This document shows, in pieces, positions 2,146 through 10,569 of a DNA stretch of 64,000 nt; position 1 is the first letter of the stretch, and each line of letters opens with the position of its first letter. The notes beneath the pieces are model-generated. The model did no database searches. It was not told where the DNA came from and saw nothing but the letters and a program-made list of their open reading frames with translations. Source of the stretch: Desulfosporosinus youngiae DSM 17734 (GTDB lineage Bacteria > Bacillota > Desulfitobacteriia > Desulfitobacteriales > Desulfitobacteriaceae); the NCBI RefSeq assembly GCF_000244895.1, contig NZ_CM001441.1, forward strand, positions 2,376,226-2,440,225, given 5' to 3'. The translations under genes were made by a program, and so were the position numbers.

Positions 2146-3357
2146 ATGTCATATAGTAATATAGTCCCCAAAATATCTACGGAACTGTTGTTTATGCTCA
2201 ATTGTCTTAAATACGTACAAGCGGAAGAAGAACAGATGCACACGTTGGATCAAAGTCTGAATTGGGATTCTTTTTTACAATTGGCGATGAACCATAGAGT
2301 ATTGCCTTTGGTATACAAAAAATTGAGCAATCCTAATAGCCCGGAGGTTCCTGAATATGTAATGAAAGCATTGCAGCAGGAGTGCAGAAACAACGCACTG
2401 AGAGCTGTTGGAATGGCTGGTGAAATGATCAGAGTTATTAGGATTATGGAAGAGAACGGAATTCGGCCGCTGATTTTAAAAGGTGCACCGCTCGCTTTAA
2501 AACTATATCAAGACATTGCCTTAAGGCCGTCAGTAGATATAGATATTATGGTTAAGCCTCTAGATTTCACAAAGGCCGAGAAACTCATGGATATGCTAGG
2601 GTATAAAAGGTTAAAGCCTGGTTCCTCGATGATTCAGACTCAACGGCAGAAAGAAAAATACTATAATAAATTTCAGCATTTCTCGTATTTCCATTTTGAA
2701 CGGGCTATTTGTGTAGAACTCCACTGGAGAACTTACAATTTTGGCGTGAAAGGTATTCCTACCGCATCCGGTCTAAAGACTCAAACCATAGATTTTGGAG
2801 GATGTTTTGTAAGTACTATGGCTGATGAGGAGTGGTTAATGTATCTAATGGTACATGGGTGTAATCATATGTGGTCTCGATTGCGATGGTTGATTGATAT
2901 AAAGAAATTTATGCAAATGACTATTGATTGGGATAGATTAATGTTATTAGCGGATAGTAATGAATTAAAAGTCATAGTGCACCTGACTCTAATTTTAGTA
3001 AATGAGCTTTTGGCTGTACCCATTCCTGGTCCTTTGTCTCAAGATGTGGCTAAGGATCGAAAAGCATGGAAACTGGCGCAGATCGTAATAGATGAATTAC
3101 GTGATAACCCAGATGAAGTATCTTATTCTAGATCTTCATATTTAAAAAAGTTAGTATTTAAGCAACCTCAATATTATGTAAGTTTGCGTACGGGTTGGAA
3201 AAGGAAACTATTATATATATTTACCTATATCTCTGCCAAGATTCATCCTGGAGAGAAGGATCTCCAACTGTTCCCGCTTCCAAGTAATTTAAATTGGTTC
3301 TATTACTTAATAAGACCATTTAATTGGGTATGGAGACGTTTCTTTATTATAAAATGA
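2146..3357 (+). CDS. Nucleotidyltransferase family protein (NTP_transf_5 type)
   Basis: A 403-residue protein of the uncharacterised nucleotidyltransferase family (PF14907-like). The diagnostic part is LILKGAPLALKLYQD followed by RPSVDIDIMVKP, where the paired acidic residues of the DxD metal site sit; a second conserved stretch is ELHWRTYNFG. No membrane segment. Proteins of this family are recurrent members of lasso-peptide and other PqqD-containing RiPP clusters, and here the gene lies upstream of such a cluster, so a role in modifying the peptide is possible. It also sits among polysaccharide genes, so a sugar-related role cannot be excluded. The substrate is unknown. Confidence 0.75.
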   Translation: MSYSNIVPKISTELLFMLNCLKYVQAEEEQMHTLDQSLNWDSFLQLAMNHRVLPLVYKKLSNPNSPEVPEYVMKALQQECRNNALRAVGMAGEMIRVIRIMEENGIRPLILKGAPLALKLYQDIALRPSVDIDIMVKPLDFTKAEKLMDMLGYKRLKPGSSMIQTQRQKEKYYNKFQHFSYFHFERAICVELHWRTYNFGVKGIPTASGLKTQTIDFGGCFVSTMADEEWLMYLMVHGCNHMWSRLRWLIDIKKFMQMTIDWDRLMLLADSNELKVIVHLTLILVNELLAVPIPGPLSQDVAKDRKAWKLAQIVIDELRDNPDEVSYSRSSYLKKLVFKQPQYYVSLRTGWKRKLLYIFTYISAKIHPGEKDLQLFPLPSNLNWFYYLIRPFNWVWRRFFIIK

Positions 3358-3457
3358 TAGTATGGAATACAGTTACATATTTCGTCGATATGTGTACGAA
3401 AAAAGCTACTACAACATTGAACACAAGATTAAAATACAGCAGGAAAGGAAGAATGAA

Positions 3458-4123
3458 GTGGAAATTAGGCGATTGTTTTATTCTCTAATTCGTAAGTGGT
3501 GGTTAATCGTACTTTTAGCGGTACTAGGCGGTGGAATAAGCTATTTGAGTGAGCACTATACGGAGCCAGTATATCAGGCGGAAACAAAATTATATATATC
3601 GAATAGGGCAGAAGCAAATGGAAAGGCATTGAATTCTTCGGAAATAGCACTTCGGCAGGAACTGGTACGTCAGTATTATGACATTATTTATAGCAGATCG
3701 ATGACTTCAGCGGTATCGCAGGCGGTTAAGGAGTATAACCTTTCAGAAAATGAAATCTTATCTATGGTCAATATAGCTAGCAAAGAAGATACTAATATTT
3801 TCACAATTAGTGCCAGGGGGCCTGATCCAACTATTGTTGCTGCTGTAGCAAATGCAACGGGACGTGAATTTATAACTCAGCTTAATCAACTCTCCAACAG
3901 CGATAATGTTGGAATTCTGGATGCAGCGCTGGTCCCAAGTAATCCAGTCAATAGTATGGGAAGGCAAAAGGTCCTTTTGGGAATATTGCTAGGGTTAACG
4001 GTTGCTTTAGGTATTATATATAGTATTGAATACTATGACACAACAGTACGTTCGGCAGAAGACATCGTAAAAGGTCTGAATCTTCGCGTGATTGGAATCA
4101 TTCCCGAACATGATATCCGATAA
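3458..4123 (+). CDS. Wzz/YveK-type polysaccharide chain-length determinant (tyrosine kinase modulator)
   Basis: Membrane adaptor of capsule/exopolysaccharide export that partners the cytoplasmic tyrosine autokinase encoded next. With a GTG start at 3458 the protein is 221 residues: a short cytoplasmic N-terminus (MEIRRLFYSLIRKWW), a first membrane helix, an extracytoplasmic Wzz domain (YQAETKLYIS) and a second helix near residues 170-195 preceded by the proline motif (VPSNPVNSMG). The open frame extends to an ATG at 3362, but AGGAAAGGA lies 8 bases before GTG 3458 and the extension looks unlike the family. Ends 15 bases before the kinase gene; split Wzz/kinase is the Gram-positive arrangement. 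Confidence 0.8.
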   Translation: MEIRRLFYSLIRKWWLIVLLAVLGGGISYLSEHYTEPVYQAETKLYISNRAEANGKALNSSEIALRQELVRQYYDIIYSRSMTSAVSQAVKEYNLSENEILSMVNIASKEDTNIFTISARGPDPTIVAAVANATGREFITQLNQLSNSDNVGILDAALVPSNPVNSMGRQKVLLGILLGLTVALGIIYSIEYYDTTVRSAEDIVKGLNLRVIGIIPEHDIR

Positions 4124-4138
4124 GGGAGGGCAATAGGA

Positions 4139-4885
4139 ATGCAGATGAAATTATTTAATTTGTATGATCACGAAAATCAAGTTGTTCAAGAGGCCTATGC
4201 AATGCTTACTGCGAACATATACGTTGGCAATAATAAAAATATGTTCAAGACCTTTGCTCTGACAAGTTGCAATCCAAATGAGGGGAAAACGTCCCTTGCT
4301 ATTAGCCTGTCAATTACTATGGCGCACTTAGGTTGGCAAGTACTCCTTATAGATGCCGATATGCGTAAGACTGCTGCAAAGAGGTTGAATGAAGGATCAC
4401 AATTGGGTCTGGCTGATTATCTGGAGGGAAAAATTGAACTTGATCAGGCACTAAGTGAGACTAATATTCCACGCTTTACCTATTGTGCTTGCGGGAATGA
4501 CCATCATAACCCAGTAGGGCTTTTATGCTCTGTCCGGTTCGAAGAGCTAGTGAGTAAAGTGAGAAATGACTATGATATCGTGCTTTTCGATACCCCAGCG
4601 CTAGCTAGCGTTGGGGATGGAGGCATTGTTGCCTCAAAAGTTGATGCGACTCTATTGACTGTGAAGATGGGTTTAACTACGCTGACAAGTCTAAAGCGCG
4701 TTAAGGAACAGCTTGAGGGGTTAAATGCCAATATTTTAGGAGTTGTATTAAATAAAGTCAAGAAGCGTGACTATAAACGGTACTTTGGATCTTACAACTA
4801 TTTCTTCGCTTCCAAACGATTTTTCAATAATAAAAAAGTTAAGAATACTAATTTCCCCGTGGATGTGCACACATCTCAAATGTAG
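4139..4885 (+). CDS. CpsD/YwqD-type bacterial tyrosine autokinase
   Basis: BY-kinase of 248 residues that autophosphorylates a C-terminal tyrosine cluster and controls polysaccharide polymerisation or export with its Wzz partner. Walker A is SCNPNEGKTSLA, Walker A' is LLIDADMRK and Walker B is IVLFDTPA. The Tyr-rich tail is RDYKRYFGSYNYFF. The protein ends with an unusual stretch after the tyrosine cluster (VDVHTSQM). It follows the Wzz-like gene closely, as expected for the split Gram-positive system. What is known is the family mechanism; the identity of the polymer is not visible here. Confidence 0.85.
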   Translation: MQMKLFNLYDHENQVVQEAYAMLTANIYVGNNKNMFKTFALTSCNPNEGKTSLAISLSITMAHLGWQVLLIDADMRKTAAKRLNEGSQLGLADYLEGKIELDQALSETNIPRFTYCACGNDHHNPVGLLCSVRFEELVSKVRNDYDIVLFDTPALASVGDGGIVASKVDATLLTVKMGLTTLTSLKRVKEQLEGLNANILGVVLNKVKKRDYKRYFGSYNYFFASKRFFNNKKVKNTNFPVDVHTSQM

Positions 4886-4925
4886 CGAAGTTTTAATAAA
4901 TCAAGCATTTCACAGTAAAGGTTTG

Positions 4926-5405
4926 GTGCATTTGGAGATATATATTAGTCAATTTAAAAAAAAGATTAAGATAAACCTCTTGCTAACTATTGCGTTTTTT
5001 TTGATGGGGATTGTACGTTTAGCAGTTTTAATTATTCCATTTCGTTTTATTAGTCGAAGTATTGGCGAAAGAATGGCGGAATCCCCTATAGAGGTGAATT
5101 ATTCTACTTATATGAAAGCGGCAAAAGTAGGTTGGGCAGTCAGTAAGATAAGTCAATTCACGCCGTGGGAGAGTAAGTGTTTAGTACAATCAATTACAGC
5201 CCAAATTTTACTTAGACTAATCAAAATACCCTATACTCTATATTTAGGGTTAGCTAAAGACGAGTCGAATAAATTAGTTGCTCATGCATGGTTAAGATGT
5301 GGTGGATTAATCTTAACAGGAGCTAGAGAAAAAGACAGGTTTGTTGCTGTTGCTAAATTTTCGAAATTTAGTAAAGAGGATGATAAAGGAAAGGTAAAGT
5401 ATTGA
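4926..5405 (+). CDS. Lasso peptide biosynthesis B2 protein (transglutaminase-like leader peptidase)
   Basis: Cysteine protease that removes the leader of the lasso precursor, acting with the B1 leader-binding protein and the C cyclase. The catalytic Cys is in WESKCLVQSITAQ and the His in LVAHAWLRCGG, with the remaining acidic residue expected after the His; this is the PF13471 pattern. The frame is open back to 4767 inside the tyrosine-kinase gene, but that extension is unlikely coding: AAAGG at 4917-4921 precedes GTG 4926 and TTG 4932, giving about 157 residues, the usual B2 size. A hydrophobic stretch near the N-terminus may contact the membrane. Its stop overlaps the next gene's start by 4 bases, so the two are translationally coupled. 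Confidence 0.85.
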   Translation: MHLEIYISQFKKKIKINLLLTIAFFLMGIVRLAVLIIPFRFISRSIGERMAESPIEVNYSTYMKAAKVGWAVSKISQFTPWESKCLVQSITAQILLRLIKIPYTLYLGLAKDESNKLVAHAWLRCGGLILTGAREKDRFVAVAKFSKFSKEDDKGKVKY

Positions 5406-6340
5406 TGAGCAAACTTTACGAAAAGGCGAGAAGAAAATACAGGGCGTTTGGGCTAAGTGTTATTTCTGATTTTGTATTAGATGATTTTTTACCAGGTGAA
5501 GAAGCGGCAGAGATTGAAATAGTCAGGGGAAAGGTTCCTGATGAAATTAGGGAACCATTGAAAAAAAACGACTTCTTTCAACTATCTAAAAGAGAATTCT
5601 TATTGAAGATTGACGGTGTCGCTAAATTCCTTGTATCCGAGGGCAAACGTATTGTTATTGAACCTTGTCCGGAAGCGGATAATTTAAAGCTGAATAGTTA
5701 TATTTATGGAACCTGTTTTGAAGTTTTGCTTATACAGCGTGGCATGCTGGCTCTACATGGGAGCGCAGTGGTTATTGATGGTAAATGTATCATTATCTCA
5801 GGTGTATCCGGTGCCGGTAAATCCACTCTTGCTTTGGCTTTAAGAGAAATGGGTTATCCCTTTTTAACAGATGATGTTGCTTTTTTGTCACTATCGGATG
5901 ACGATACAATTTGGGTTTGTCCAGGCTTTCCTGTTCATAAACTTCGTAGAGATAGTGTAGAAACTATTGGAATTAATATGCAATCAATTTCTCAGATATA
6001 TTTGAATAATCAAGATAAATGTGTAATGAGAGTTAAATATGGTTATCAGAAAGCGCCGGTACAGCTGTTTGCGCTTTTGGAACTGAGGTCTGAAACATGT
6101 AATCAGGTCAGTATGACAAGGCTTGATGGAATGCAGAAATTGTCAGTCTTATTTAATCATACTTTTCGTGGGAGTTTTCTTAGCTTATTAAGTATGGAAG
6201 TTGCTAATTTCAGAAAGCATGTTTCTATAGCAGGAAAAATATATGTATATCGAGTGATAAGACCTAAAAATACATTTACCCTTGAGAAACAGATCAAATT
6301 AATATTACAAGAACTAAAAGAATTAACTAACGTGAAGTAA
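5402..6340 (+). CDS. HPr-kinase-like kinase of a lasso peptide cluster (PadeK/ThcoK type)
   Basis: A 312-residue protein with the C-terminal HPr kinase/phosphorylase fold: P-loop GVSGAGKSTLALAL near residue 137, followed by TDDVAFLS (Walker B-like region with paired Asp) and VCPGFPVHKLR. The true HPrK signature for HPr recognition is not obvious. In paeninodin-type clusters, homologues phosphorylate the side chain of the C-terminal Ser of the precursor. The precursor at 8661-8819 ends in Gly-Ser, fitting that role. It overlaps the B2 gene by 4 bases and precedes the B1 gene. Kinase family is seen; the substrate is inferred from family and context. Confidence 0.85.
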   Translation: MMSKLYEKARRKYRAFGLSVISDFVLDDFLPGEEAAEIEIVRGKVPDEIREPLKKNDFFQLSKREFLLKIDGVAKFLVSEGKRIVIEPCPEADNLKLNSYIYGTCFEVLLIQRGMLALHGSAVVIDGKCIIISGVSGAGKSTLALALREMGYPFLTDDVAFLSLSDDDTIWVCPGFPVHKLRRDSVETIGINMQSISQIYLNNQDKCVMRVKYGYQKAPVQLFALLELRSETCNQVSMTRLDGMQKLSVLFNHTFRGSFLSLLSMEVANFRKHVSIAGKIYVYRVIRPKNTFTLEKQIKLILQELKELTNVK

Positions 6341-6379: not shown

Positions 6380-6700
6380 ATGCCATTCAATAATAACAAT
6401 TGTTTACTTAATGCTGTCGTCAAAAGAATTAATGATATCCCTTCTGCTGTCATAGATGATGAAATCGTCATGATGCATATTGAAAAGGGTAAATACTACG
6501 GCTTAGATCCTGTCGGTAGCCGTATATGGGGTTTGATGGAAAATCCCCAAATAGTAAGTTCTATAGTTAAGACATTGCTTGAGGAATATGACGTGGATAC
6601 AATGACTTGTGAACAACAAGTCCTTGAGTTTATTAATAAGCTCAAGGATGAAGAGTTAATCGTTATCACGGATCTAAATGAGGGCTGCAGATTATTATGA
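6380..6700 (+). CDS. Lasso peptide B1 protein (PqqD-like RiPP recognition element)
   Basis: A 106-residue PqqD-family protein that binds the leader peptide and presents the precursor to the B2 protease. It has the typical winged-helix arrangement: N-terminal beta strands with AVIDDEIVMMHIEKGKYYGLDPVGSRIWGLM, then helices ending in EFINKLKDEELI. The Y-Y-G-L-D-P-V-G-S-R-I-W run is characteristic of discrete B1/PqqD proteins. It has an AAGGAAGGATG ribosome binding site at about 6363-6372 and its stop overlaps the start of the cyclase gene by 4 bases. Confidence 0.88.
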   Translation: MPFNNNNCLLNAVVKRINDIPSAVIDDEIVMMHIEKGKYYGLDPVGSRIWGLMENPQIVSSIVKTLLEEYDVDTMTCEQQVLEFINKLKDEELIVITDLNEGCRLL

Positions 6701-8646
6701 GTGCTATTTGTGGATTTTTCCAGATGAATGATAAACCCGTTTCCGGTGAAATCGGTTCGGCCATGATGGAAAAACTGGCTAAATATCATGCTGACTACTC
6801 CGATGGTTTCTATGGAAAAGAATTTTTCTTCGGTTGTTTATTTCAGGTAATAACCCCTGAATCAAAGTTAGAAAAACTGCCCTATCATGATTATGAGGCA
6901 GGGTTGATTATTACGGCGGATGCAATTATTGATAACCGCTCAGAGCTTATGGATGTTTTTGGTATCCATTCCACCGATAGGGCGAGGGTAACTGATAGCC
7001 AGTTGGTATTATTGGCTTATAAGAAATGGGGCAATAAATGTCCTTGTTATTTAATAGGAGATTATGCCTTTGTGATATTTGATCAAAATAAGCAGGAGCT
7101 ATTTTGTGCCAGAGATCACGTAGGGAAAAGAACGTTTTACTTTACAATGAATTCTGACATGTTTGCTTTTTGCACATTAATGAAGCCGCTATTTGTGATT
7201 CCCGGAGTTGAGAAGAAGCTAAATGATTTATGGATTGCCGACTTTTTGGCGTTGAATTCTGTTGTCCACGAAATTGATTCTAACCATACAGTTTACCGGG
7301 ATATTCAGCAGTTGCCACCGGCACATTCAATGACGGTTAACCGAGATGGAACCAAAAAACTAAAATATTGGGACCCTCTTAAGTCACCAATAATCAAATT
7401 TAGAACCGATGCAGAATATGATCATGCTTTTCAGGATGTATTTTTTGAAGCAGTACACTGTCGTACACGCAGTATTGGATCAGTTGGAGTATCATTAAGC
7501 GGGGGGCTAGACTCAGGCTCTGTGGCATGTGTTGCGGCAAGAAAGCTTGAAGAAAAAGGTAAGGATCTCCAGGCTTTCAGTGCCCTGCCGATGAAGGGGT
7601 ATAAAGAATGGCTGCCTGTCCACTTAATTTCAGATGAAAGTCCCTATATTGAGGCAATCAAAGATCAATATTCTAATATAAAGGTGACGTACTGTCGTTC
7701 AGAAGGAAGAAATTCGTATACAGACATTGATAAATACCTGGAATTATTAGAACAGCCTTATAAAATTGTCGAAAACTTGTTTTGGATGGATTGCATTACC
7801 GAAATGGCTGCCCGAAAAAATTGCAAGGTACTACTGGACGGGCAGTTTGGCAACGGAACAATTTCGTATGGAAATTTCAATATCCAAGCATATTCGTTAT
7901 TAAGGCAAATGAGACTTATTTCATTAGTTAAAGAGATTACGGATTACTGTAGACTTCATAGAATTAGTCGGAAAAAGTTTTGTAAGTCTTTATTCATTAA
8001 TTTTTTGCCGGCTATGTTACGTAAGCATATTCTAAAGACGAGCAGTAATAATGTAGAGAAGGAGTTCTCTCTAATTAACCCTGCCTTATCGTCGTATTAT
8101 AATATAAGTGAACGTATAGAAAAAAAAGGTTACAGTTTAGATAATATGAGAAATTATACTTTATCGGAACTACGAAAATTTGCTATGGAGTCAACTGCAT
8201 TTACTCATATTGCTACTATAGAAACTAAAATGTCTCTTGTTCATGGAATAGTTAAAAGAGATCCGACTAGGGATAAAAGAGTAATAGACTTCTGTTGTCG
8301 AATCCCAGGAGAACAATTTGTAAAACAGGGACAGGAAAGACGTTTAATACGCAGGGCAATGGAAGGTATTTTACCCGATAAAGTAAGATTGAATACTACA
8401 GTTAGAGGGCTTCAGAGTGCTGACTGGCTTCAAAGAATCACTCCTAATTGGGATGTAATAAAACAAGATATCGAAGATGTTATACAGAATGAAACTATTC
8501 AGCCCTATATAGATACGGCAGAAGTTGAAAGGGTAATAAATAAAAATAAAGTCCTGATAGACAATGAAACAAGGGACATAGATATTCGAATGCTTTTAGT
8601 TTGCTTGATTTTCGGGGTATTTATGAATAATGAGGCTTTCCCATGA
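6697..8646 (+). CDS. Lasso cyclase (C protein, asparagine-synthetase-like)
   Basis: ATP-dependent macrolactam synthetase of 649 residues that adenylates the ring Asp/Glu side chain and joins it to the alpha-amine of core residue 1. The N-terminal half is a glutamine-amidotransferase-like domain starting MSAICGFF, where Cys is not at position 2, so glutaminase activity is probably lost as in other lasso cyclases. The synthetase half has the PP-loop SLSGGLDSGSVACVAAR near residue 270 and the later ELRKFAMES helix. It overlaps the B1 gene by 4 bases and is followed 15 bases later by the precursor gene. Confidence 0.92.
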   Translation: MSAICGFFQMNDKPVSGEIGSAMMEKLAKYHADYSDGFYGKEFFFGCLFQVITPESKLEKLPYHDYEAGLIITADAIIDNRSELMDVFGIHSTDRARVTDSQLVLLAYKKWGNKCPCYLIGDYAFVIFDQNKQELFCARDHVGKRTFYFTMNSDMFAFCTLMKPLFVIPGVEKKLNDLWIADFLALNSVVHEIDSNHTVYRDIQQLPPAHSMTVNRDGTKKLKYWDPLKSPIIKFRTDAEYDHAFQDVFFEAVHCRTRSIGSVGVSLSGGLDSGSVACVAARKLEEKGKDLQAFSALPMKGYKEWLPVHLISDESPYIEAIKDQYSNIKVTYCRSEGRNSYTDIDKYLELLEQPYKIVENLFWMDCITEMAARKNCKVLLDGQFGNGTISYGNFNIQAYSLLRQMRLISLVKEITDYCRLHRISRKKFCKSLFINFLPAMLRKHILKTSSNNVEKEFSLINPALSSYYNISERIEKKGYSLDNMRNYTLSELRKFAMESTAFTHIATIETKMSLVHGIVKRDPTRDKRVIDFCCRIPGEQFVKQGQERRLIRRAMEGILPDKVRLNTTVRGLQSADWLQRITPNWDVIKQDIEDVIQNETIQPYIDTAEVERVINKNKVLIDNETRDIDIRMLLVCLIFGVFMNNEAFP

Positions 8647-8660
8647 AGGGAGGTGAAAAA

Positions 8661-8819
8661 ATGGATGATCAGGTAAAAAAACGGTGGAATGAACCTCAAT
8701 TATTAGATCTAAATCTAGATAAGACTAACTTTGTCTGGCAAGGTTCAGGGGTTGACGGTCTATGGATTAGTGCAGTAAATCCGCCTAGTCCACCACCACC
8801 TAATGTTTTTGGTAGTTAA
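8661..8819 (+). CDS. Lasso peptide precursor (A), 52 aa, paeninodin-like
   Basis: Small gene with an ideal GGGAGGTG site at 8648-8655. The leader has the lasso recognition pattern: KKRW, then Pro at residue 12 and Leu at 14 and 15, and Thr22, which should be the -2 residue. Cutting after Asn23 gives a 29-residue core beginning FVWQGSGVD, with Asp as residue 9, so a nine-member Phe1-Asp9 macrolactam is predicted. The tail is long and proline-rich (NPPSPPPPN) and ends FGS; the terminal Ser is the expected target of the kinase at 5402-6340. Phe at core position 1 is unusual; Gly, Ala, Cys or Ser is common. The precursor lies after the cyclase rather than first in the operon. Recognition rests on position, leader motif and spacing, not on homology search. 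Confidence 0.85.
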   Translation: MDDQVKKRWNEPQLLDLNLDKTNFVWQGSGVDGLWISAVNPPSPPPPNVFGS

Positions 8820-8857: not shown

Positions 8858-8897
8858 TACTACTAGGTTTAATTTTTATAACTAGTAGTATTTTTTT
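8858..8897 (+). terminator. Rho-independent terminator after the lasso precursor gene
   Basis: Arms TACTACTAG (8858-8866) and CTAGTAGTA (8882-8890) with a 15-base AT-rich loop, followed by seven T. It overlaps the stop codon of the convergent exporter gene. The T run is on the plus side, so it mainly ends the lasso operon; on the other strand a T-rich run occurs about 13 bases beyond the stem. Confidence 0.75.
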
Positions 8898-10569
8898 CTT
8901 CATATAAGGTACCTTCCGAGAGGCGGATGATACGATCGCATTTATCAAATACAGATTGACGATGCGTAATAGCAATACAAGTCCTTGGTGGGGTTAGCCT
9001 TCGGATGTTCTCAAAAATAGTACATTCTGTTTCTATATCTAAGGATGAGGTTGCCTCATCCAATAGTAAAATTGATGATTGTCTTAATAATGCCCGGGCA
9101 ATGGAAAGACGTTGCGATTGGCCCTCAGATAGGCCTACACCATGCTCACCTATTAAAGTATTCATGCCATCAGGGAAATTTTTAATAAACTGCCAGGCGC
9201 AGGCTGTCTTTGCTGCAACTATTAATTCATTGTCTGATGCTGAAGGGTTTCCAATACGTAAGTTTTCAGCAATGCTACTTGAGAATAATGTATTTCCTTG
9301 TGGAACGTAAGAGAAATGTTTTTTTGTATTATCGGATACTAATACTTTACCGTAGTTCTTATGAAGTAAATAGATGGCTCCATTCAGTGGGGGGAGAAGC
9401 CCCAGCAGCATTCGAACGAGTGTCGTTTTTCCTTCACCGGAGGGCCCAATTAAAGCAACAATTTCACCAGGATGAATGGTTAATGAGATATCAGAAAGAA
9501 TCATGTTACGATTATCATAGGCAAATGAAGTGTGGTCTATGAATAGGCCCATAGGTTCGTTAATGGTCGATAGTACAGAATCATTCGATTTTTCCAACTG
9601 TAATTCTTCAAATTCCATTAAACGTTCCGCTGAAGCAATTGTAGAAACAACTTGAGGCAAACTACGAGCCAGACCTTCAAATGGGCCTTGTACTTGACCC
9701 ACAAGCTGCAAAAAGGCCGTAAAAGTGCCAAAGCTGGAAATACCTCGAGAAAGATTGATTGCGCCTAACACGAATGCCATAAAGAATCCAAGCCGATATC
9801 CCAGTCCTATAACTAAGCTAGTTGCAATTCCATACTTTGCACGCTTCATTGTTAAATCTAATTTGGTTTTCTGTAACTCCTTGATACGCTGTAAGTTCCA
9901 CTTGCTAATCTCAAAAATCTTAATAATTAGGGAATTTTGAATCGATTCATGGATATATGAACGATAACGGCTTTCTGAGGACTGAATAGCATGTTGCATT
10001 TTTTTAAGTCTCCGACCAACAAGCCAACCAAGACAAACTGAAATTGGGCCTAAAATAAAAGCGAAAATTGCCATTGTTTTATCATAATATAAAAGTGTTA
10101 AAAATGCCGCAATTAATTGAACGCTGAGAGATATTAAACTTGGAAGCAGAGTCACGATTCCATTAACAATAATAGAGACATCACTAGTTAAGCGGGTTAA
10201 TACATCACCGCTGTGGTATTTATTTAAGCTATTCCATTTAATCTTATATAATAAACTAAGAAATTCTTTTTGTATATCATTGTTTAATTTCTCTCTTAGA
10301 TAAGTGGACTTTATATTAACTAAGGAAGAAAGAAGTACTTGCATAAGTATCAAGAGGGCAAAAACTACGATGTAGATGCCTGCTTGTCGGATATCCTTCT
10401 GAACCGAAAAATCAATTATGTGTTTTGTACTAATTGCTGTGGCAACGGTAGCTAATGGAATAAAGGAATTCAATAAAATAATCATTAGAAGAGAGTTCCT
10501 ATATTGTCTAATGTATTTTGCAAGCCAAAAATATGCATTTAAATTAATTAATTTTCCTTGTTTAAGCAT
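8869..10569 (-). CDS. Lasso peptide exporter (D), ABC transporter with fused membrane and ATPase domains
   Basis: A 566-residue half-transporter: about six membrane helices in residues 25-310, then the nucleotide-binding domain. Walker A is ALIGPSGEGKTTLVRM, the signature is VGLSEGQSQRLSIARALL, Walker B is SSILLLDEATSSLD, and the switch His is in CIAITHRQS. No N-terminal C39 peptidase domain, fitting export of a peptide already cut by B2. Such D proteins export the mature lasso peptide and give self-immunity. It is on the opposite strand, convergent with the precursor gene and separated from it by 49 bases, so it must have its own promoter in 10570-10700; that is unlike the usual co-directional A-B-C-D layout. 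Confidence 0.85.
   Translation of the reverse strand: MLKQGKLINLNAYFWLAKYIRQYRNSLLMIILLNSFIPLATVATAISTKHIIDFSVQKDIRQAGIYIVVFALLILMQVLLSSLVNIKSTYLREKLNNDIQKEFLSLLYKIKWNSLNKYHSGDVLTRLTSDVSIIVNGIVTLLPSLISLSVQLIAAFLTLLYYDKTMAIFAFILGPISVCLGWLVGRRLKKMQHAIQSSESRYRSYIHESIQNSLIIKIFEISKWNLQRIKELQKTKLDLTMKRAKYGIATSLVIGLGYRLGFFMAFVLGAINLSRGISSFGTFTAFLQLVGQVQGPFEGLARSLPQVVSTIASAERLMEFEELQLEKSNDSVLSTINEPMGLFIDHTSFAYDNRNMILSDISLTIHPGEIVALIGPSGEGKTTLVRMLLGLLPPLNGAIYLLHKNYGKVLVSDNTKKHFSYVPQGNTLFSSSIAENLRIGNPSASDNELIVAAKTACAWQFIKNFPDGMNTLIGEHGVGLSEGQSQRLSIARALLRQSSILLLDEATSSLDIETECTIFENIRRLTPPRTCIAITHRQSVFDKCDRIIRLSEGTLYEEKNTTSYKN

Follow-up and report, generated by a model that had tools for sequence, protein, structure and literature searches.

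The phosphorylated lasso peptides of Bacillota include paeninodin (AGPGTSTPDAFQPDPDEDVHYDS) and pseudomycoidin. According to a review of the work on these two peptides, a kinase phosphorylates the C-terminal serine of the precursor before maturation, and PsmN, a nucleotidyltransferase homologue, is responsible for an added hexose (PMC9266682). In the literature, B1 is also described as handing the leader to B2, and the cyclase as making the isopeptide bond. The leader numbering W-15/P-12/L-10 of PbaA comes from the PbaB1-PbaA crystal structure, and the same source describes a capsule-locus setting for Bacilli lasso clusters with paeninodin-type genes (PMC13381572).

In a hand count of a review table with 62 lasso peptides, residue 1 was Gly in 39, Ser in 9, Cys in 7, Ala in 3, Leu in 3 and Trp in 1, with Phe or Tyr in none of the 62; fuscanodin has Trp1, and citrulassin, lagmysin and stlassin have Leu1 (PMC12427821). 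A 2025 report names experimentally observed first residues 'such as' Gly, Cys, Ser and Ala and describes metanodin with Asn1, a peptide whose precursor was labelled 'other gene' by antiSMASH and whose first residue was inferred from Thr(-2) and supported by mass spectrometry (PMC12670498). For fusilassin, with a native ring of nine residues, ring sizes of 7-10 are described as tolerated (PMC13352647). A natural lasso peptide with Phe1 was not found in the open-licence literature searched on first residues, mostly search listings, and in the two papers listed with the word 'Phe1' it stands for Phe14 and Phe10.

Here we describe a locus in the window, the stretch of 64,000 nucleotides from Desulfosporosinus youngiae DSM 17734 that was analysed. 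Judged from its letters, the reading frame at 8661-8819 is very likely a lasso precursor. We consider it probable that it specifies a class II paeninodin-like peptide with a Phe1-Asp9 macrolactam and a phosphorylated Ser29, served by a cyclase lineage outside the mainstream clade.

Gene content and setting of the cluster

We found B1, B2 and cyclase genes with an adjacent precursor gene in the window (Table 1). The cyclase, 649 residues long, lies under the NF033535 cut-off, which cyclases exceeded in none of the 82 genomes of the host's class. Its matches among solved structures were distant asparagine synthetases and a hydroxyamidotransferase, and no residue-1 pocket was readable from those matches. 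In the leader pocket of B1, 10 of the 13 positions compared were identical to the paeninodin-type B1, with G42D, I44V and E75T as the differences. B2, the single match to its family in the genome, has the Cys and His of SKCLVQ...HAWL that were kept in all 10 aligned rows; its true start is probably at about 4.9 kb, because the listed frame overlaps the upstream kinase gene. An HprK-like kinase together with a C-terminal Ser, as expected of the paeninodin type, was present; the kinase matches were below the family cut-offs, and its P-loop was conserved with kinases from related clusters. Transporters 43-52% identical to the ABC transporter were carried by the related clusters L064, L068, L161, L162 and L164.

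A UDP-glucose dehydrogenase gene stands at the start of the window, and the 16 kb upstream of it encode a polysaccharide epimerase, an aminotransferase, a sugar transferase, glycosyltransferases, a Wzy-like protein and a flippase-like protein; these neighbours place the cluster in a locus of the capsule type. Among the lasso genes sit those for a polysaccharide chain-length protein and a tyrosine autokinase (3362-4885), and from this placement co-regulation of capsule and lasso peptide is possible. The probable terminator behind the precursor gene was absent from the output of the consensus scan, and the promoter scan gave 44 against 37.2 in shuffles (s.d. 5.1), a number not clearly higher.

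Table 1. Features of the locus (window positions) and precursors with Asp at position 10 in related stretches (positions in the stretch named)
Feature	Position	Strand	Evidence and remarks
NTP_transf_5 protein	2146..3357	+	PF14907, E 1e-57; as in paeninodin-type clusters
Wzz chain-length protein and tyrosine autokinase	3362..4885	+	Family matches; between the NTP_transf_5 gene and B2
B2, leader peptidase	4767..5405	+	NF033537 above cut-off
HprK-like kinase (K)	5402..6340	+	Hpr_kinase_C and HprK_rel_B matches, both below cut-offs; predicted to phosphorylate the C-terminal Ser
B1, PqqD-type leader-binding protein (RRE)	6380..6700	+	NF033536 above cut-off; matches to PDB 5v1u_A and 9x90_B
Lasso cyclase (C), asparagine-synthetase-like	6697..8646	+	NF033535, E 4.2e-124, 415.5 bits (cut-off 525 bits); Asn_synthase
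Ribosome-binding site GGGAGGTG	8649..8656	+	Before the precursor ATG; from sequence
Lasso precursor gene (A)	8661..8819	+	23-residue leader, 29-residue core; predicted Phe1-Asp9 ring; C-terminal Ser29; register as PbaA
Predicted ring codons FVWQGSGVD	8730..8756	+	Phe1 8730-8732, Asp9 8754-8756; placed by the Thr(-2) register
Hairpin and T run, probable terminator	8858..8890		RNA fold z -3.60, inverted repeat
ABC transporter (D)	8869..10569	-	ABC_membrane and ABC_tran; convergent with the precursor gene
Asp10 precursor, L068	9547-9678	-	
Asp10 precursor, L091	4614-4748		
Asp10 precursor, L161	2632-2778		
Asp10 precursor, L162	1224-1355		

The precursor and its predicted ring

The precursor frame begins with an ATG at 8661, 14 bases after the cyclase stop codon (8644-8646), and runs for 52 codons to a stop that ends at 8819; the 52-residue peptide consists of the leader MDDQVKKRWNEPQLLDLNLDKTN and the core FVWQGSGVDGLWISAVNPPSPPPPNVFGS. 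A 52-codon frame directly behind a lasso cyclase, with a strong ribosome-binding site, was what the sequence-only reading had described, and the letters and the list of reading frames bear this out. The label 'unannotated-size' that it attached to the gene has no precise meaning, and 52 residues are within the size range of the relatives. A longer frame from an in-frame ATG at 8643 (58 residues), which overlaps the cyclase stop and lacks a comparable ribosome-binding site, was rejected, the core being identical and only the N terminus of the leader differing.

The leader (WNEPQLLDLNLDKTN) contains the anchors KKxW..P.L, and W-15, P-12, L-10 and T-2 are in the register of PbaA, the crystallised paeninodin-type leader; a WxxP leader with W-15, P-12 and L-10, as in the paeninodin type, is thus present. 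Thr at leader -2 is accompanied by an acid within core positions 7-9, as expected of a lasso cluster, and this Asp9 is the sole Asp or Glu of the core. The leader pattern, Thr(-2) and an Asp nine residues after the predicted cut had all been read from the letters before, and each was found; the proposed Thr(-2) cut and Phe1-Asp9 ring agree in register with homologous precursors and with the PbaA numbering. The A/G1-G2 start of paeninodin-type cores was absent, the core starting F1-V2, and Val2 in place of the common Gly2 is a second departure that had gone unremarked. Because Asp9 is the only acid, rings of 7, 8 and 10 residues would start at W3, V2 and N-1, respectively; these were rejected, as the Thr(-2) register gave them no support. 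The predicted product comprises the ring and the loop and tail GLWISAVNPPSPPPPNVFGS, 29 residues in total, with a mass of 2989.4763 Da for the unmodified lasso.

The sequence itself shows the genes and their families, the leader register, its conservation and the single acid of the core; from these we infer cleavage, ring closure, threading, phosphorylation and export. B1 would bind the WxxPxL leader and deliver it to B2, which would cut after Asn(-1), behind Thr(-2). The cyclase would adenylate Asp9 and couple it to the Phe1 amino group; the resulting nine-residue ring FVWQGSGVD would have a proline-rich loop and tail of 20 residues threaded through it. The HprK-like kinase would phosphorylate Ser29 ahead of cleavage and ring closure, the NTP_transf_5 protein may attach a sugar (possibly a hexose onto the phosphate), and the ABC transporter would export the product.

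We then considered how often such a frame arises by chance. Among the 562 small frames of the window, 8 had the leader motif and Thr, and the precursor alone had the acid at 9 as well. The full motif (leader motif, Thr(-2), acid at 9 and C-terminal Ser) was found in 122 of the 10,296 small frames from 147 stretches, and apart from the window frame all of these (121) belong to the list of precursor hits; shuffling gave it in 3 of 203,020 small frames. A leader profile of 15 columns (-17 to -3), built from 81 relatives, scored the window precursor at 3.4 bits (E 50), too low to call; this was the top score within its own 12-kb stretch, and 17 frames outside the hit list scored at least as high, of which 4 were real-looking (three in L163 and one in L125) and the rest chance-like. 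The curated model NF033524 (lasso_PadeA_fam) did not match the window precursor at E 1; in the 25-row alignment to which this precursor belongs, 22 rows matched. When the genome was scanned with this model no precursor exceeded the cut-off, the best other match reaching 11 bits (E 3.17), and no small frame with the full motif was found in the 16 kb upstream of the window. Alternative precursors were rejected: neither the window nor the 16 kb before it held one, and across the genome none exceeded the NF033524 cut-off. Since both the leader profile and NF033524 fail on this peptide, its recognition rests jointly on position, ribosome-binding site, leader anchors, Asp9 and Ser29.

Related precursors and the cyclase lineage

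Relatives of the cyclase at E < 1e-170 were found in 5 of the 45 genomes of the host family, its own included, the nearest being 45% identical. At E 1e-60, 10 of the 398 genomes sampled from the phylum had a match, again counting its own, as did 206 of the 344 sampled from one Bacillota family. A plasmid tblastn search returned six cyclases, all of at most 37.6% identity, and a contig scan with the cyclase a single distant Flavobacteriales match, which was not used. Part of the cyclase matches was read as 147 stretches, the window's included. A motif pattern kept 82 of 91 matches, with 3 duplicates and 6 chance frames (lacking Thr(-2) or the acid, or lying on the opposite strand) dropped. Because this filter demanded Thr and acid, the survey was repeated without it, using a leader profile (-17 to -3) built without the window and ignoring position -2 and the core; the 147 stretches gave 144 matches, 132 of them distinct. 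Nine stretches had no profile match: the window, L125, L148, L163, L065, L122, L213, L165 and L166. Precursors with WxxL leaders were spotted by eye in L125, L148 and L163, two looser scans of L065 yielded no precursor, and L165 and L166 are flanks that have no cyclase match.

Thr was at -2, equally far from the leader anchor, in 131 of the 132 distinct matches, L067 being the exception, and the anchor in these 131 relatives was Trp in 114 and Tyr in 17. Homologous clusters cutting elsewhere, which the sequence-only reading had named as evidence against itself, were looked for in this way and did not refute it. Residue 1 was Ala in 66 and Gly in 28 (94 of 131 together), Tyr in 15, Leu in 10, Gln in 5, Glu in 5, His in 1, Asn in 1 and Phe in none; residue 2 was Gly in 121, Ser in 8, Asp in 1, Ala in 1 and Val in none. 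Asp was found at 9 in 113 relatives and at 10 instead in 17; L178 has Asp at 10 and also at 8, and the Asp of L187 is at 8. The C-terminal Ser was present in 129 of the 131, and 71 of 82 related precursors lie no more than 200 bases from the cyclase gene. The window precursor is thus typical at the predicted cut, ring-closing and phosphorylation positions and unique among its relatives at residues 1 and 2. Phe1, called unusual in the sequence-only reading, was absent from all 131 relatives and all 62 published peptides; the accompanying view, which took Gly, Ala, Cys and Ser as the normal residues, was overstated, with Trp1, Leu1 and Asn1 in print and Tyr1 and Leu1 predicted among the relatives. 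Aromatic ring starts, though unusual, are known from Trp1 and predicted in the Tyr1 relatives, and a bulky residue 1, if accepted by the cyclase, would extend the known tolerance.

In a quick tree built from 77 cyclases, that of the window fell in a clade of 9 rows (SH-aLRT 100) apart from the other 68, together with L064 (Ala1), L066 (Gly1), L068 (Leu1, Asp10) and five Tyr1-Asp10 loci. A more careful tree, drawn from a hand-chosen subset of 31 rows, contained a mainstream clade of 19 rows (100/100) that excludes the window, whose place was weak (83/23 with the Asp10 group, 88/55 with a wider group). Membership of the mainstream clade is a mark of the paeninodin type; because the cyclase lies outside it, we assign the product to a divergent paeninodin-like lineage of lasso peptides and do not call it a paeninodin. 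On the 77-row tree, residue 1 changed at least 16 times, 11 of these between Ala or Gly and other residues, and the position of the ring Asp at least 2 times (this tree held L132 and L146 of the second Asp10 group described below). The cyclases of L112 and L118 are 67% identical, though one has a Leu1 and the other an Ala1 substrate. Position 1 is evolutionarily labile, and Phe1 is therefore plausible and less startling.

Eight precursors of the window's cyclase lineage (L068, L091, L093, L094, L095, L129, L161 and L162) have Asp at 10 by the Thr(-2) cut. They would either form natural ten-residue macrolactams (Tyr1/Leu1-Asp10) or be cut one residue later (Gly1-Asp9); the only ten-residue ring of the Asp10 type in the literature search was an engineered one. 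Because these eight carry Asp one residue later, the ring register is less fixed in this lineage than in paeninodin. It is possible, though somewhat less likely than not, that the lineage has relaxed ring-start rules, with a Phe1-Val2 ring here and natural ten-residue Tyr1/Leu1-Asp10 rings in relatives, N-terminal bulk and ring size being freer than in any family of the review table.

Several other arrangements were observed in the stretches. A second Asp10 group (L132, L146, L178, L186, L190, L201, L205, L207 and L215) has Gly2 in none of its members, and six of the nine start ASTxxGPxTD. Tyr1-Gly2...Asp9 precursors (YGKGxxxIDF), with a predicted aromatic start, occur in one Bacillota family (L131, L144, L157, L158, L211, L222, L224 and L225). 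In L163 (3708-7915) two tandem cyclase genes are each followed by their own precursor gene or genes, some with WxxL and not WxxP leaders, and L122 and L125 have two cyclase matches too. L090 (9305-10011) has four near-identical precursor genes in a row behind one cyclase, with the core AGKGWxxIDWVTYDDADLYNPS. A precursor-like frame of a congener, L067 (5586-5714, minus strand), reads NTE-YKGGTGND, its Thr being displaced by one residue away from the Trp anchor; the ring would run from Tyr1 to Asp8 if the Thr rule applies, and from Glu1 to Asp9 if leader length decides.

Alternative readings and comparison with known systems

A cut by B2 one residue later would leave Thr at -3 and give a Val1-Asp8 ring, and the same cut would yield a canonical Gly1-Asp9 in the eight Asp10 precursors of the lineage. 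However, the rule in print is Thr(-2), from which Ile or Val departs only rarely, and the PbaA numbering agrees with it; furthermore, the window has the ordinary Thr-to-Asp spacing of 113 of the 131 relatives, and Val1 is no more canonical than Phe1. We regard the later cut as unlikely. To a like degree we doubt that the core is cut and modified and never efficiently threaded or cyclised, the locus being a relic, an inactive pairing or the source of a linear phosphopeptide. F1 and V2 are indeed outliers, and since the closest cyclase in the 45 family genomes is 45% identical, no near relative shows the same core under selection; yet the enzyme genes have open reading frames that match their families, the B2 and kinase motifs are kept, and Asp9, Thr(-2) and the C-terminal Ser have been retained while the rest of the core diverged.

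The capsule locus, kinase, NTP transferase and RRE are common to clusters for linear polyphosphorylated peptides (LPPs), a family that shares genes with paeninodin clusters (PMC13381572). LPP leaders carry YxxPxVLxHQxIxFETxxS, whereas the window leader has WxxPxL and not the rest, and a cyclase and B2 adjoin the precursor. With the LPP leader motif absent and a cyclase adjacent, LPP membership was rejected, and we judge it very improbable. It is just as hard to believe that 8661-8819 is not a gene and that the real precursor lies elsewhere: the low leader-profile score would fit, but the rarity of the full motif in shuffled frames, the position directly behind the cyclase with its strong ribosome-binding site, and the failure of the NF033524 genome scan to give a candidate above its cut-off, and of the upstream 16 kb to give a small frame with the full motif, all argue against it.

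If the Phe1-Asp9 lasso peptide is made as predicted, Phe would join Gly, Ala, Ser, Cys, Leu, Trp and Asn among the residues shown at position 1 of natural lasso peptides, and an aromatic-rich ring without Gly2 (F1, W3) would come from a natural cyclase, useful for the engineering of lasso libraries. This would extend known tolerance without any new kind of chemistry, and it would point to a cyclase lineage whose ring rules are looser. The locus also shows that a divergent Bacillota precursor can escape the curated model and still be recognised from its leader register and its position.

The window has the B1, B2, C, K, NTP and D families in common with paeninodin and pseudomycoidin, and resembles them in leader register, Thr(-2), the Asp9 ring and a C-terminal Ser for phosphorylation. 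It differs in Phe1-Val2 (Ala1-Gly2 in theirs), a longer proline-rich tail, a transporter on the other strand and a cyclase outside the mainstream clade of the trees, whose rows do not include PadeC and PsmC themselves. Fuscanodin/fusilassin (WYTAEWGLELIFVFPRFI) is similar in its bulky aromatic residue 1 and native nine-residue ring, but has Trp1, a Glu9 acid, Thermobifida fusca as host and a four-gene A/B1/B2/C cluster without a kinase. Metanodin likewise has a precursor missed by antiSMASH and an odd first residue read from Thr(-2), but this is Asn1 and the peptide is gammaproteobacterial. The Leu1 of citrulassin, lagmysin and stlassin is bulky and hydrophobic, as is the start of the window core, although it is leucine and the cores are others. 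The Tyr1 relatives, 8 with Asp9 (for example, L131, L144, L157 and L158) and 7 with Asp10 (for example, L091, L129 and L161), share an aromatic residue 1, the enzyme families and the C-terminal Ser with the window and are, like it, predicted only; they differ in their Tyr-Gly start.
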